From NCBI RefSeq assembly GCF_900172265.1, contig NZ_FWFK01000009.1, positions 1-64,000 on the forward strand: a DNA stretch of 64,000 bases. Direction: 5' to 3'. Origin of the DNA: Roseivivax jejudonensis. Its GTDB lineage: Bacteria; Pseudomonadota; Alphaproteobacteria; Rhodobacterales; Rhodobacteraceae. Numbering within the stretch: position 1 is the stretch's first letter; each line of letters starts with the position of its first letter. A program made the position numbers and the translations under genes. Positions 4,064-13,769 of the stretch are shown in pieces. The notes under the pieces are model-generated. The model made no database searches. It was not told the DNA's origin and worked only from the letters and a program-made list of their open reading frames with translations.

Positions 4064-4770
4064 TGGGTAACAAGACCAATCCGATCGGCATGCGGCTCCA
4101 GGTCAACCGCACCTGGGACAGCCGCTGGTACGCCGACACCAAGGACTACGGCAATCTGCTGCTCGAGGATCTGAAGATCCGCGAGTTCATTCACGACGAG
4201 TGCAAGCAGGCCGGCGTGGCGCGCGTGATCATCGAGCGTCCGCACAAGAAGTGCCGCGTGACCGTTCATGCCGCCCGCCCGGGCGTCATCATCGGCAAGA
4301 AGGGCGCCGACATCGAGTCGCTGCGCAAGAAGCTCGCGCGGATGACCGCCTCGGAACTGCACCTCAACATCGTCGAGGTCCGCAAGCCCGAGCTCGATGC
4401 GCGGCTCGTGGGCGAGTCGATCGCGCAGCAGCTCGAGCGCCGGGTGTCGTTCCGCCGCGCGATGAAGCGCGCGGTCCAGAACGCGATGCGCATGGGCGCC
4501 CAGGGCATCCGTGTGAACCTGTCGGGCCGCCTCGGCGGCGCCGAGATCGCCCGGACCGAATGGTACCGCGAGGGCCGCGTTCCGCTGCACACGCTGCGTG
4601 CCGATATCGATCACGCGTCGGTCGAGGCCGAGACTCCCTATGGCATCATCGGGATCAAGGTCTGGATCTTCAAAGGCGAGATCATGGAGCACGATCCCCA
4701 GGCGCGCGACCGTCGCACGCAGGAGCTCCAGGACGGACCTGCACCGCGCGGTGCCGGCGGCCGTCGCTGA
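4063..4770 (+). CDS. rpsC: 30S ribosomal protein S3
   Basis: S3 of 235 residues, part of the mRNA entry channel. It begins [13 protein letters not shown] and contains the KH-domain GXXG-type segment [13 protein letters not shown] and the C-terminal [14 protein letters not shown] signature. The start is fixed by the TAATG junction with rplV and the universal N-terminus; an in-frame upstream reading from 3865 is not used. Confidence 0.98.
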
Positions 4771-4783
4771 GGAGGACTGAGAG

Positions 4784-5197
4784 ATGCTTCAACCCAAACG
4801 CACGAAGTTCCGCAAGCAGCAGAAAGGCCGGATCAAGGGCGAAGCCAAGGGCGGCTCCGACCTCAACTTCGGCTCCTACGGCCTGAAAGCGACCCAGCCC
4901 GAGCGCGTCACCGCGCGCCAGATCGAGGCGGCCCGCCGTGCCATGACGCGCCACATGAAGCGTCAAGGCCGCGTCTGGATCCGCATCTTCCCCGACACGC
5001 CCGTGTCGGCGAAGCCGATCGAGGTCCGGATGGGCAAGGGCAAGGGCTCGGTCGATCGCTGGGCCTGCAAGGTCAAGCCCGGCCGGGTGATGTTCGAGAT
5101 CGACGGCGTCGGCGAGGACATCGCGCGCGAGGCCCTGCGCCTCGCCTCGATGAAGCTGCCGATCAAGACCCGGATCGTGGCCCGCGAGGACTGGTGA
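4784..5197 (+). CDS. rplP: 50S ribosomal protein L16
   Basis: L16 of 137 residues, which helps position tRNA near the peptidyl-transferase centre. The signature [11 protein letters not shown] and [10 protein letters not shown] are present. The arginine in [10 protein letters not shown] (R82 here) is equivalent to E. coli Arg81, the residue hydroxylated there by the 2-oxoglutarate oxygenase YcfD/RoxA. It is followed by a terminator and then by an unusual two-gene insertion that includes an oxygenase-like gene. Confidence 0.98.
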
Positions 5198-5228
5198 TCC
5201 GGCGCATCTGCGCCGCAGGATAATTTGG

Positions 5229-5262
5229 CGCCTCCCGTCGCATCCGCGGCGGGGGGCGTTTT
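5229..5262 (+). terminator. Rho-independent terminator after rplP
   Basis: A 12-bp stem with two G-U pairs (5229-5240 with 5247-5258) and a six-base loop is followed by TTTT. It ends the S10 block, so the two following genes and rpmC probably depend on another promoter or on read-through. Confidence 0.75.
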
Positions 5263-5311
5263 CCGTTTCGCCGCATGGCTTTACCGATCGGAACAGGACA
5301 GGGGGGGCGGC

Positions 5312-5611
5312 ATGGCGCTCTACCGGATGGCGTTTGCCGGACAATCGACGTTCGGGGCATTCGAGGTGGCGGCGACCGTCGCGGCCGAGGATGTCGACAC
5401 AGCCGAGGCCCGGTCGCGGCTGGCGATCTATCGCGCCTGGACCGATGCCGGGCACGCGCGGAGCGGGGACGGAGCGATGCCGGACCTCGCGCTGACCGAT
5501 GCCGAACGGCTGTCACTGCTGTCGCGCGCCACTGCGTCCGAGGGTGTCGGCACGTTCGACTTCCGCGGCGAGGGCCAGCCGCCGGTTTCCACCGCGCGCA
5601 GGCTTCGCTAG
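5312..5611 (+). CDS. Unrecognised 99-residue protein in the ribosomal block
   Basis: I do not recognise this family. The start is placed at ATG 5312, after a purine-rich GGGGGGGCGG stretch. An in-frame ATG at 5225 would start inside the terminator hairpin. The protein is soluble-looking, with no signal peptide, membrane segment or cysteine. It has a central alpha-helical acidic part (EDVDTAEARSRLAIYRAW, about residues 27-44) and a C-terminal Arg-rich end. Codon use is like its neighbours. It lies 36 bases before the oxygenase-like gene on the same strand, so the two are probably co-transcribed and may act together. Confidence 0.6.
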   Translation: MALYRMAFAGQSTFGAFEVAATVAAEDVDTAEARSRLAIYRAWTDAGHARSGDGAMPDLALTDAERLSLLSRATASEGVGTFDFRGEGQPPVSTARRLR

Positions 5612-5647
5612 GAGAGGCGCGATCGCAGCTTTCGCAGGGGCCCTGCC

Positions 5648-6268
5648 ATGTCCGATATCCGCTCGCTCTTCGCCACGCGCCTCTATCGGGCACGCCTGTC
5701 GGACCACGGCCCGTCGATCGACGCGCGGGAGCTCGAGGCGTCGTGCCTGTCCATCGCCGAGGATGACGAGGCCGGGCAGGAATGGTGCGAACGCGAAGGC
5801 TATCCCGGCTACACCTCCTACGCCTCGCTGACCGATCTGCCCTGGCGGTTCCCGATCTTCGCCGAAGTGGTGAAGGCGCTCGACGCGCATGTGGCGGCTT
5901 TCGCGCAGGACCTGCAGTTCGATCTCGGCGACAAGGGGCTCGTGCTCGAGGACATCTGGATCAACGTTCTGCCCGAGGGCGGCTCGCACGGCTCGCACAT
6001 TCACCCGCATTCGGTGATATCGGGCACCACCTACGTCGCGATGCCCGAGGGAACGAGCGCGCTCAAGCTCGAGGATCCGCGCCTGCCGATGATGATGGCC
6101 GCACCGACCCGCACGCGCGACTGCCGCGACGAGCTTCGCAGCTTCGTCTACGTCGCGCCGGAGGCCGGCGACGTCCTTCTGTGGGAGAGCTGGCTGCGCC
6201 ACGAAGTGCCGATGAACATGGCCGAGGAGGATCGGATCTCGGTCAGTTTCAATTACAAGTGGGAGTAG
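5648..6268 (+). CDS. Putative 2-oxoglutarate/Fe(II)-dependent oxygenase (TIGR02466-like)
   Basis: This 206-residue protein resembles the TIGR02466 / 2OG-FeII_Oxy_5 family of putative 2OG-dependent oxygenases. Residues 114-130 (HGSHIHPHSVISGTTYV) look like the first metal-binding strand and turn, with H117, H119 and H121 as candidate ligands. H185 in SWLRHEVP is a candidate distal ligand, and R196 in DRISVSFNYKW is placed like the 2-oxoglutarate-binding arginine. There is no signal peptide, so it should be cytoplasmic. The substrate is unknown. Its place between rplP (L16) and rpmC (L29) suggests, by inference only, a ribosomal protein or translation factor. Most characterised ribosomal oxygenases (YcfD/RoxA, MINA53, NO66) are JmjC-type; the prolyl hydroxylase OGFOD1/Tpa1, which acts on ribosomal protein S12/uS12, is the closer analogy. 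Confidence 0.75.
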   Translation: MSDIRSLFATRLYRARLSDHGPSIDARELEASCLSIAEDDEAGQEWCEREGYPGYTSYASLTDLPWRFPIFAEVVKALDAHVAAFAQDLQFDLGDKGLVLEDIWINVLPEGGSHGSHIHPHSVISGTTYVAMPEGTSALKLEDPRLPMMMAAPTRTRDCRDELRSFVYVAPEAGDVLLWESWLRHEVPMNMAEEDRISVSFNYKWE

Positions 6269-6316
6269 CCGCAGGGGCGTAACGGCCCGCCATTGCCGAT
6301 GTCGCGGTATTCGGGG

Positions 6317-6345
6317 TTGCCAAACGGCAGGATCCGCTGTACGCG
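6317..6345 (+). promoter_or_regulatory. Possible promoter for rpmC and the spc genes
   Basis: TTGCCA and TACGCG are separated by 17 bases in the 164-base gap between the oxygenase gene and rpmC. The -10 match is poor. It is listed because a terminator precedes the inserted genes and a promoter for the spc genes is expected somewhere here. Confidence 0.25.
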
Positions 6346-6432
6346 ACGCGCTCATCCACGGACTCCACCGGAATCAGGGTGACCCTCGCATAGGGGAGGG
6401 GCTCTCCGGTGATGTTGAGAGAAAGGGGCGAC

Positions 6433-6639
6433 ATGAACGCCAGCGACCTCCGTGACAAGACCCCGGACGAACTCCGGGACCAGCTTGTCCAGCTCAAGAA
6501 AGAGGCCTTCAACCTGCGGTTCCAGCAGGCGACCGGCCAGATGGAAAGCACCTCGCGCATGCGCAGCGTCCGCCGCGACGTCGCGCGCGTGAAGACCATC
6601 CTGAACGAAAAGGCGGCCGCGGCCGCCACGACCGAGTAA
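6433..6639 (+). CDS. rpmC: 50S ribosomal protein L29
   Basis: L29 of 68 residues, close to the tunnel exit. It has the typical helical hairpin and the [15 protein letters not shown] signature. ATG 6433 gives the normal N-terminus [10 protein letters not shown]; the ATG at 6409 would add eight unusual residues. An AAGGGG ribosome-binding site precedes it. Confidence 0.96.
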
Positions 6640-6652
6640 GGGGACACAGAGA

Positions 6653-6979
6653 ATGCCCAAGCGTATCCTGCAAGGCACCGTGACCTCGACCGCCAACGCC
6701 CAGACGGTGACGGTTTCGGTCGAACGCCGCTTCAAGCACCCGGTGCTTCAGAAGACGATCAAGAAATCCAAGAAGTACCGCGCCCACGATGAGGGCGACG
6801 CCTTCAACGTCGGTGATTTCGTGATGATCCGCGAATGCGCGCCCAAGTCCAAGACCAAGCGCTGGGAGGTCATGACCCCCGAGATGATCGAGGATCACGA
6901 GAAGAAGCGCGCCGAGAACGCCCAGTACGAGCGTGAGCGCTGGGAGGCCAAGCAGGCCGGAACCGAAGCCGCCCACTGA
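6653..6979 (+). CDS. rpsQ: 30S ribosomal protein S17 with C-terminal extension
   Basis: S17 binds 16S rRNA early in assembly. Residues 1 to about 72 are the standard OB-fold core ([20 protein letters not shown]). Residues 73-108 are an extra charged, helical tail (for example [17 protein letters not shown]) absent from the roughly 84-residue E. coli protein. It is 13 bases after rpmC. Confidence 0.96.
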
Positions 6980-10928: not shown

Positions 10929-10957
10929 GGCAGCGCCCTTTCGAAGCGAACAGAAGA

Positions 10958-10988
10958 CCCCCCGCCGGACGACCGGCGGGGGTTTTTT
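10958..10988 (+). terminator. Strong terminator after rpmD
   Basis: A C-rich/G-rich stem (CCCCCGCCGG with CCGGCGGGGG) and a four-base loop are followed by six T. It ends the spc transcription unit and separates it from the convergent minus-strand genes that follow. Confidence 0.9.
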
Positions 10989-11006
10989 CGTGTCGGGGGG
11001 CGGGCG

Positions 11007-12014
11007 TCAGACCTGGACGCTGATCTTGCCGAAATGCGCGCCGGATTCCTCGTGCCGGAAGGCGTCGGCCAGCTCGTCGAGCGGGAAGCTGCGGTCGAGC
11101 ACCGGGTGGAGGCCTGTGGTTTCCATTGCGCGGACCATGTCCTGCTGGTGGCGCCGGCTTCCGACGATGAGCCCCTGAAGACGCTGGTGCTTGGCCATCA
11201 TCGCGGCTGTCGGAATCTCGCCCGTGCGCCCGGTCAGGACGCCGATCAGCGCCATGTGTCCGCCGATGCGGCAGGCCTGTATCGACTGTCCCAACGTGGC
11301 CGGGCCCCCGACCTCGATCACGTGATCGACACCGCGTCCGTCGGTGGCGTCGGCGATGGCAGCGCCCCACTCCTCGGTGTCGCGGTAATTCACGACATGG
11401 GCCGCCCCCATCTGGGTCAGCCGCTCGGCCTTGTCGGGCGACGATGTCGTGGCGAAGACCCGTGCGCCCATAGCCCTGGCGATCTGCAGCGCATAGATCG
11501 ACACGCCCCCGGTGCCGAGGACGAGCACGTCGTCACCGGCCTTCAGCCCGCCATCGACCACAAGGGCGCGCCACGCCGTGAGGCCCGCGGTGGTGATGGT
11601 CGCGGCTTCCTCGTGGCTCCAGCCTGCCGGCGCACGGGTGAACGACGTGGCCGGGGCGACCACCACTTCGCGCGCGAAGCCGTCGATGCCGTCGCCGGGC
11701 GTGGTCGAAAAATCCGCGATCGGCGGCGGCCCGTCGATCCAACGCGGAAAGAAGGTCGATACGACCGCGTCGCCCACGGCGAAATCGGTCACGCCGTCGC
11801 CGATGGCTTCGACATCGCCGGCCCCGTCGGACATCGGGATGCGCCCGTCCTCGGTCGGCATGTTGCCCGAGACGACGCCGTAATCGTGGAAATTGAGCGA
11901 GGAGGCGCGGACACGAACGCGGATCTCGCCGGGGCCGGGGTCACCGGGATCCGGCGCCTCGGTCACCGACAGGCGATCGAGGCCGCCGGGCTTGGCGAGT
12001 GTCATTGTCTTCAT
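11007..12014 (-). CDS. MDR-family zinc-type/NAD(P)-dependent oxidoreductase
   Basis: This 335-residue medium-chain dehydrogenase/reductase has an N-terminal GroES-like domain (SSLNFHDYGVVSGNMP, about residues 38-53) and a Rossmann domain with VLVLGTGGVSIYALQIARA (about 165-183). The catalytic-zinc cysteine of alcohol dehydrogenases is not evident, so it is closer to zinc-independent quinone/enoyl reductases of the family; the substrate cannot be told. A GGAGG site precedes the ATG. It is probably co-transcribed with the DEAD-box helicase upstream, and its presence inside the spc gene order is unusual. Confidence 0.85.
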   Translation of the reverse strand: MKTMTLAKPGGLDRLSVTEAPDPGDPGPGEIRVRVRASSLNFHDYGVVSGNMPTEDGRIPMSDGAGDVEAIGDGVTDFAVGDAVVSTFFPRWIDGPPPIADFSTTPGDGIDGFAREVVVAPATSFTRAPAGWSHEEAATITTAGLTAWRALVVDGGLKAGDDVLVLGTGGVSIYALQIARAMGARVFATTSSPDKAERLTQMGAAHVVNYRDTEEWGAAIADATDGRGVDHVIEVGGPATLGQSIQACRIGGHMALIGVLTGRTGEIPTAAMMAKHQRLQGLIVGSRRHQQDMVRAMETTGLHPVLDRSFPLDELADAFRHEESGAHFGKISVQV

Positions 12015-12058
12015 GGAGTCCTCCGCAACTGGGCATCGTGCCGGGCGGAGGTAATCGC

Positions 12059-12086
12059 GGGCCGCGCGGGATCAAACGCGCGGCCC
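12059..12086 (-). other. Hairpin between helicase and MDR gene
   Basis: A 10-bp stem (GGGCCGCGCG / CGCGCGGCCC) has an eight-base loop and no T run on either strand. It may reduce read-through from the helicase into the MDR gene or stabilise the upstream mRNA. Confidence 0.4.
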
Positions 12087-12100
12087 GTGACGCTGCGAAA

Positions 12101-13345
12101 TCAGGCTGCCCGGCGCTGGCGCGAGCGACGCGGCCGACGAGCTGCGGGTTTGCCGCCGCCGCCCGGCTTGCCGCCGCCGCCGCCGCGGCGCTTTTTCGGC
12201 GCGGAGTCGCGCGGAGCGGACCAGGGTTCGCCACCGGCGACCGGAATCTCGCGGCCCATCACCTTTTCGATGTCGCGCAGCTCTCCCATCTCGGCGGGTG
12301 CGCAGAATGCGATGGCGGCGCCGTCACGCCCGGCCCGGGCGGTGCGGCCGATCCGGTGCACGTAGTTGTCCGGCACGTTGGGCAGATCGAAGTTGTAGAC
12401 GTGGCGGACCTCCGGCACGTCGATACCGCGGGCGGCGACGTCCGTGGCGACCAGCACGCGCAGGTCCCCGGCGCGGAAGCCCTTGAGCGCGCGTTCGCGC
12501 TGGCCCTGGCTCTTGTTGCCGTGAACCGAGGCGGCGGCAAAGCCCGCCCGGTCGAGCGTCTTCATCAGTCGCTCGGCGCCGTGCTTGGTGCGCGCGAAGA
12601 CCAGCGCCGACTCGTCGCGATGCGCGTCGAGCATGTCGATCAGGAGCGACGCCTTTTCGGCCTGCTCGACGAAATGCACGCTCTGCTCGATCTTGTCGGC
12701 GGGCTTGCCCGGGGGCGCCGTTTCGATCCGGACCGGATCGGTCAGGTATGCGCTCGCGATCTCGCCCATCAGCTTGGGCATGGTCGCGGAGAACAGCATC
12801 GTCTGACGCTCCGCCGGAAGCAGTTTCGCGATCTGGCGCAGCGCATGGATGAACCCGAGGTCGAGCATCTGGTCGGCCTCGTCGAGCACCAGGAACTCGG
12901 TGCGGTCGAGGCGGACCGACTGACGCTCGAGGTGGTCGATGAGCCGGCCCGGCGTGGCGACGAGGATGTCGCAGCCGCGCGAGAGCTTGTTGACCTGCGG
13001 ATTGATCGAGGCGCCGCCGACCACAAGCTCCACGCGCACCGAGGTGCCCGCGGCGTAGGCGCGGAGGTTGTCGAGGATCTGCCGCGCAAGCTCGCGCGTC
13101 GGTGCGAGGACGAGGCCGCGCACCGTCTTGGGGGCGGGGCGTCCCTCCATCCGCATCAGCGCGGAGACGAGGGGCAGGCCGAAGGCCGCGGTCTTGCCGG
13201 TGCCGGTCTGGGCGAGGCCCATGACGTCGCGACCATTCATCGCTTCGGGGATGGCGCGGGTCTGGATCGGGGTCGGGTCGGTGATGCCCATCTCGGTGAG
13301 ATTGCGGGCGAGGCGGGGCGGCAGCCCCAGCATGTCGAAATCCAA
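12101..13345 (-). CDS. DEAD-box ATP-dependent RNA helicase (RhlE-like)
   Basis: It contains all helicase motifs in order: Q motif (TDPTPIQ), AQTGTGKT, PTRELA, TPGR, DEAD, SAT, then RVLVATDVAARGIDVP and HRIGRTARAG. The C-terminus is a low-complexity Gly/Lys/Arg tail likely to bind RNA. I place the start at a TTG (13345), which has AGGA eight bases upstream and gives an N-terminus of the MDFDMLGLPPRL type; in-frame ATGs at 13372 and 13399 are alternatives. Such helicases assist ribosome assembly or RNA decay, often in the cold. It faces away from rplO and has its own promoter and a leader of roughly 200 bases or more. Confidence 0.92.
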   Translation of the reverse strand: MDFDMLGLPPRLARNLTEMGITDPTPIQTRAIPEAMNGRDVMGLAQTGTGKTAAFGLPLVSALMRMEGRPAPKTVRGLVLAPTRELARQILDNLRAYAAGTSVRVELVVGGASINPQVNKLSRGCDILVATPGRLIDHLERQSVRLDRTEFLVLDEADQMLDLGFIHALRQIAKLLPAERQTMLFSATMPKLMGEIASAYLTDPVRIETAPPGKPADKIEQSVHFVEQAEKASLLIDMLDAHRDESALVFARTKHGAERLMKTLDRAGFAAASVHGNKSQGQRERALKGFRAGDLRVLVATDVAARGIDVPEVRHVYNFDLPNVPDNYVHRIGRTARAGRDGAAIAFCAPAEMGELRDIEKVMGREIPVAGGEPWSAPRDSAPKKRRGGGGGKPGGGGKPAARRPRRSRQRRAA

Positions 13346-13592
13346 GGGATATGTCCTGTCATGGCGCGGCATGAGCCGCTCGTCGGTCGGCGCCCGCATC
13401 CCGGTCCGGGGCGGGCGGTCGCGTTCGGGTGAACCCGCCGATCGACGCGCGGCCGGATGCCGTCGCGTCGCCTGCGGGCGTCGGACCCCCGCGTGAATTG
13501 GGAACCAGGTTGAAATGTCGCGCTGCGCCCCGGGCCCGTGGCCACTTCGGGGGGCGTCGCCTGCTCACGCGGCAGGACTGGCGCATGGCGTG

Positions 13593-13621
13593 CAGATAGA
13601 CAGGCGTCGTAGTGAAGTCAA
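13593..13621 (-). promoter_or_regulatory. Promoter for the DEAD-box helicase
   Basis: On the minus strand TTGACT (13616-13621) and TATCTG (13593-13598) are separated by 17 bases. This predicts a start of transcription near 13586 and a long 5' leader, as is common for cold-shock or autoregulated helicases. The leader (13346-13586) holds no recognisable riboswitch. Confidence 0.6.
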
Positions 13622-13640
13622 TCCGCGCCGGACGCGGGTC

Positions 13641-13669
13641 TTGATCCGGCCGACGGGCCATTCTATACG
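13641..13669 (+). promoter_or_regulatory. Promoter for rplO-secY-adk
   Basis: TTGATC (13641-13646) and TATACG (13664-13669) with a 17-base spacer lie about 100 bases before rplO. Because a terminator follows rpmD and two opposite-strand genes intervene, rplO needs a promoter here. It sits back to back with the helicase promoter in a 424-base gap that otherwise shows no gene. Confidence 0.65.
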
Positions 13670-13769
13670 CGCCCGGTGATCCCGCCCGGGGTCACGACTC
13701 GTACACATGCAAAGCCGTGGTCGGCCCGCTTCCGTCGCTCGGGGGCCGCATCCGGCAAGGAGAAGCGAC

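Follow-up and report, generated by a model that had tools for sequence, protein, structure and literature searches.

The ribosomal gene cluster of Rhodobacteraceae seems, from gene order and sequence comparison, to be split behind rplP, and what most constantly occupies the gap seems to be a gene for a putative 2-oxoglutarate (2OG)/Fe(II) oxygenase. We have studied that gene in a 64,000-nucleotide stretch of DNA from Roseivivax jejudonensis (contig NZ_FWFK01000009.1, positions 1 to 64,000; "the window" means this whole stretch). The gene lies between rplP and rpmC, which encode ribosomal proteins L16 and L29. The best explanation overall, which we put forward tentatively, is that its product is a three-histidine Fe(II)/2OG oxygenase that hydroxylates a protein of the translation machinery and is expressed from a transcription unit of its own. 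The family is meant here in the wide sense, and its name is inferred from named loci; the closest named relatives are Roseivivax, and the joined ribosomal proteins of the window are 96% identical to those of R. sediminis.

A predicted three-histidine oxygenase

The first-pass annotation had called the protein a TIGR02466-like oxygenase, and the assignment holds: residues 5-205 match model positions 1-200 of 201 with 282.7 bits (cut-off 62.5), and the match to PF13759 has 120.5 bits (cut-off 27). The protein had also been described as lacking a signal peptide, and when the sequence is read by eye the N-terminus has no visible hydrophobic stretch. The gene is single-copy and under selection. No second copy is seen in its own genome, where the next match has an E-value of 0.29, and the ratio of nonsynonymous to synonymous substitution rates (Nei-Gojobori) against nine relatives is about 0.09-0.17.

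Two orthologs have solved structures, 2rg4 from Oceanicola granulosus (E-value 1.2e-115, 81% identity) and 3bvc from Roseovarius nubinhibens (E-value 1.7e-111, 78% identity), and their titles assign no function. Judged by titles and the beginnings of abstracts, no functional study of the TIGR02466 family was found in the open-licence literature. The family names occur in papers on cyanophages, giant viruses and grapevine, and PMC4508852 mentions 2RG4 in passing.

The AlphaFold model (predicted local distance difference test score 92) is a double-stranded beta-helix, and on that model the protein is a single domain of prolyl-hydroxylase-like fold. The predicted active-site residues map to strands 114-117, 184-187 and 196-205 or immediately follow them, with R196 inside the last. 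In 2OG oxygenases the corresponding strands bear HxD/E, H and R. The double-stranded beta-helix of canonical Fe(II)/2OG oxygenases is found, as is the arginine of the last core strand (R196, from sequence and model, its binding being predicted), but the HxD/E...H triad is not.

H117, H119, H121 and H185 had been proposed as candidate ligands, with R196 noted beside them, and all five are where they were said to be. H117, H119, H185 and R196 are invariant in 25 of 25 orthologs; H121 varies among them, and does not stand as a family-wide ligand. For 36 weaker family members, picked by hand from a profile-search list, position 117 is histidine in 36/36, position 119 in 35/36 (tyrosine in one) and position 185 in 36/36, while position 196 is arginine in 36/36. 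As judged from these alignments, histidine stands in place of the carboxylate ligand in every member examined except the one with tyrosine. Phage loci were not used as evidence for HxH, because the pattern used to find them included it.

The phage 2OG-Fe(II) oxygenases of phrog_81 belong to the same sequence family as the window protein (E-value 2.3e-30), and 27 aligned copies from the phage collection (of 79 kept besides locus L154) are 20-34% identical to it. L154 itself is a contig from a viral collection that ends in a 63% identical copy (positions 6001-6597), and it may be host DNA at the edge of a prophage.

Outside the protein's own family, the nearest solved fold is that of PPHD, the EF-Tu prolyl hydroxylase of Pseudomonas putida (4j25, 4iw3; 16-18% identity), with which the fold of SnoN ties. 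The site of PPHD is the usual HxD...H, in contrast to the HxH...H of the window protein.

Gene order at the rplP-rpmC junction

The position of the gene between rplP and rpmC, as first annotated, is confirmed by open reading frames (ORFs) and Pfam matches. The order is not peculiar to this genome but common to many genera, and the first-pass reading survives the comparison. In a set of 120 family genomes, one per genus, the gene (counted at E ≤ 1e-40) is present in 65, among them two fragments (G416, G500) and two copies with an internal stop (G427, G406). In 52 of the 65 it lies between rplP and rpmC on one contig; one of these 52, G429, has the rplP and rpmC halves 206 kb apart, with the oxygenase beside rpmC. 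Another 10 genomes have the gene at most 6 kb from rplP or rpmC, with the other flank on another contig or not found. G418 is rearranged, with 2.0 kb between the gene and rpmC, and in G439 the oxygenase, rplP and rpmC are all on separate contigs. In G471 it is elsewhere, with 0/18 ribosomal genes in the 17.7 kb around it, and rplP and rpmC are 103 bp apart. Among genomes with rplP and rpmC on the same contig, 50 of the 54 that have the gene show at least 1 kb between the two, and 30 of the 37 that lack it show less than 300 bp.

The same order is seen in a second set, 83 loci in all (80 found by search, the window, and two more): both flanks are visible in 74 loci, and the oxygenase lies between them in all 74. 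In the other 9, a flank is missing from the stretch examined. L065, L070 and L149 were counted as having the gene, and L148 (genome G429) has it elsewhere in its genome. The 16 loci searched for remnants of the oxygenase yielded one clear case, L151, where 60 residues of 70% identity lie near rplP (positions 6258-6437) in a genome counted among those without the gene.

Scored by a single rule that we devised, 76 of 83 loci that carry the oxygenase and 9 of 15 that lack it have a strong hairpin after rplP, where shuffled controls expect 0.15 and 0.0. Two Roseivivax loci (L004, L007) are among those without one. Outside the family, none of 28 alphaproteobacterial loci has such a hairpin, and the rplP-rpmC spacing there is 17-61 bp; 86 genomes matched, and of the best 30 all but the window and one family member make up these 28. 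From the hairpin in the family, and from its absence and the short spacing in these 28 loci, the family's cluster seems to be divided after rplP.

The rest of the gap varies. Ten recurring ORFs were tested with Pfam, and the matches are to thioesterase, prephenate dehydrogenase-like, DUF3237, peptidoglycan-binding, Fic, DoxX-like and RTX-repeat families; one further ORF has a weak LysM match below the cut-off, and two have none. As for a conserved partner gene, none appears there: apart from the oxygenase, no ORF cluster covers more than 12 of 73 loci, and shadow frames may account for some of the clusters.

Candidate substrates and alternative explanations

We propose that the protein would bind Fe(II) through H117, H119 and H185, and 2OG through R196, and would use O2 for the hydroxylation of a single conserved substrate with a housekeeping role, being expressed from a transcription unit apart from the ribosomal operons. 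The likeliest single kind of substrate would be a translation-machinery protein (EF-Tu or a ribosomal protein), which we favor on two grounds: the search for a dedicated partner gene found none, and the nearest outside fold is an EF-Tu prolyl hydroxylase. The more ambitious version, in which a PHD-like three-histidine-iron oxygenase carries out O2- and 2OG-dependent hydroxylation of a translation protein across marine Rhodobacteraceae, from a gene at the S10-spc split point, we consider unlikely.

Several observations weigh against a translation substrate. They are also those expected if the substrate is a small molecule, or a protein with no part in translation, and if the gene was inserted a single time, in some ancestor belonging to the family, into a permissive gap downstream of the rplP terminator and was then kept mainly by vertical descent; on that view the ribosomal neighborhood means nothing functionally. 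A terminator-like hairpin precedes the gene, which seems to lie between one ribosomal transcription unit and the next, in a gap that holds variable cargo. Its orientation also changes: it is on the ribosomal strand in 36 of the 52 genomes and on the opposite one in 16, and in the second set 60 point the same way as the flanking genes and 14 the other way. On a quick tree of 79 loci (16 opposite), at least 6 orientation changes are needed, a count that is approximate because only 27 of the 92 inner branches are strongly supported. The argument that the gene sits inside a ribosomal operon was rejected, given the terminator-like hairpin after rplP and the 16 inverted genomes. Distances between oxygenases follow those between ribosomal proteins (78 loci, Mantel r 0.46; the largest of 500 permutations is 0.16), and the SnoN tie counts on this side too.

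The 20 orthologs outside the family (45-69% identity) belong here too. Over the 14-19 kb examined around each, 0/18 ribosomal genes are present, and so the ribosomal association is probably one ancestral insertion kept by descent. Nor do they have a constant neighbor beyond close kin, the widest clusters reaching 5/20 and 4/20 in varying places, with gene calling crude enough to miss the oxygenase itself in 4/20 (L117, L118, L126, L128). Ten close neighbors tested with Pfam include an AraC-type regulator, UreD, an enolase-superfamily protein, an aspartyl protease-like protein, a ketopantoate reductase, a cytochrome c, an amidohydrolase and two methyltransferases (L131, L153, one family code); one has no match. 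The persistence of the gene in the gap shows its usefulness; it does not show that ribosomes are what the product acts on. On the other hand, small-molecule tailoring enzymes usually travel with pathway genes, and none were seen traveling with this one. A substrate outside translation has, in our judgment, close to an even chance, which is as high as it is because it covers a union of many possible substrates.

The protein could also bind a metal and 2OG (or another ligand) and be no 2OG oxygenase at all, but a sensor or other three-histidine metalloenzyme. The carboxylate ligand is absent from its usual place, and in prolyl 4-hydroxylase the same aspartate-to-histidine replacement abolished activity, according to PMC2767507; both count against our proposal. 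But H185 and R196 are kept in all 36 weaker homologs, as expected of a working 2OG site, and we regard a non-oxygenase as quite unlikely.

RoxA/YcfD and other JmjC ribosomal oxygenases belong to the 2OG-oxygenase superfamily, and the arginine they would suggest as target, R82 of the window's L16 (which we take to be the equivalent of E. coli R81), is present, as had been claimed. Its value as evidence for the substrate does not survive, because the oxygenase has no PF08007 (JmjC_2) match at E-values up to 1 and no L16 position tracks the gene, two further points against our proposal. Tracking here means one residue in at least 95% of cases with the gene and at most 60% without it; no position does so in L16, L29, L22, S19, S17 or L14, and two do in S3, which kinship may explain. 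Of 80 family genomes, a single one, G395, has RoxA-type JmjC_2 above the cut-off, and it also has the oxygenase gene. RoxA/YcfD-type enzymes have JmjC_2 and additional dimerization and winged-helix domains (the latter two according to PMC4295552), whereas the window oxygenase is one domain of 206 residues with none of them. That it hydroxylates R82 in place of a missing YcfD/RoxA, a special case of our proposal suggested by its place beside rplP, the rarity of JmjC_2 and the presence of R82, is thus highly improbable.

Other features of the window and significance

Table 1. Features at the two interrupted ribosomal stretches of the window
Feature	Positions	Strand	Remarks
rplP (ribosomal protein L16)	4784-5197	+	last gene ahead of the gap; PF00252, E-value 1.2e-53
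Terminator-like hairpin	5227-5260	+	directly 3' of rplP; 15 pairs (11 G-C) and T-rich tail; hairpin scan
Small ORF	5312-5611	+	99 residues; between rplP and the oxygenase gene; no Pfam or NCBIfam match
TIGR02466 / 2OG-FeII_Oxy_5 oxygenase	5648-6268	+	206 residues; likely metal ligands H117, H119, H185; likely 2OG-binding R196
rpmC (ribosomal protein L29)	6433-6639	+	first gene past the gap; PF00831, E-value 1.7e-26
Zinc-binding dehydrogenase	11007-12014	-	between rpmD and rplO
DEAD-box helicase	12101-13399	-	between rpmD and rplO

Five hairpin-type sites occur in 2 kb, against 1.2 expected, and the stem after rplP is the longest by far. No sigma-70-type promoter was found in 4700-6700, a weak test for a high-GC genome. 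The small ORF was rejected as a substrate or partner of the oxygenase, since ORFs resembling it (44-46% identity) are limited to three Roseivivax loci. A second ribosomal stretch (10929-13706) is also broken, by two minus-strand genes between rpmD (L30) and rplO (L15). Ribosomal protein L3 (567-1439, 290 residues) has about 65 C-terminal residues rich in alanine and glutamate, and its Pfam match stops at 183.

The split of the rplP-rpmC junction in Rhodobacteraceae is a clear departure from a gene order that is strongly conserved in bacteria. A family-wide HxH...H would be an unusual metal site for the 2OG-oxygenase fold. And if the substrate is a translation protein, the enzyme would mark the translation apparatus in another oxygen-dependent way, in bacteria that are mostly without RoxA-type enzymes.
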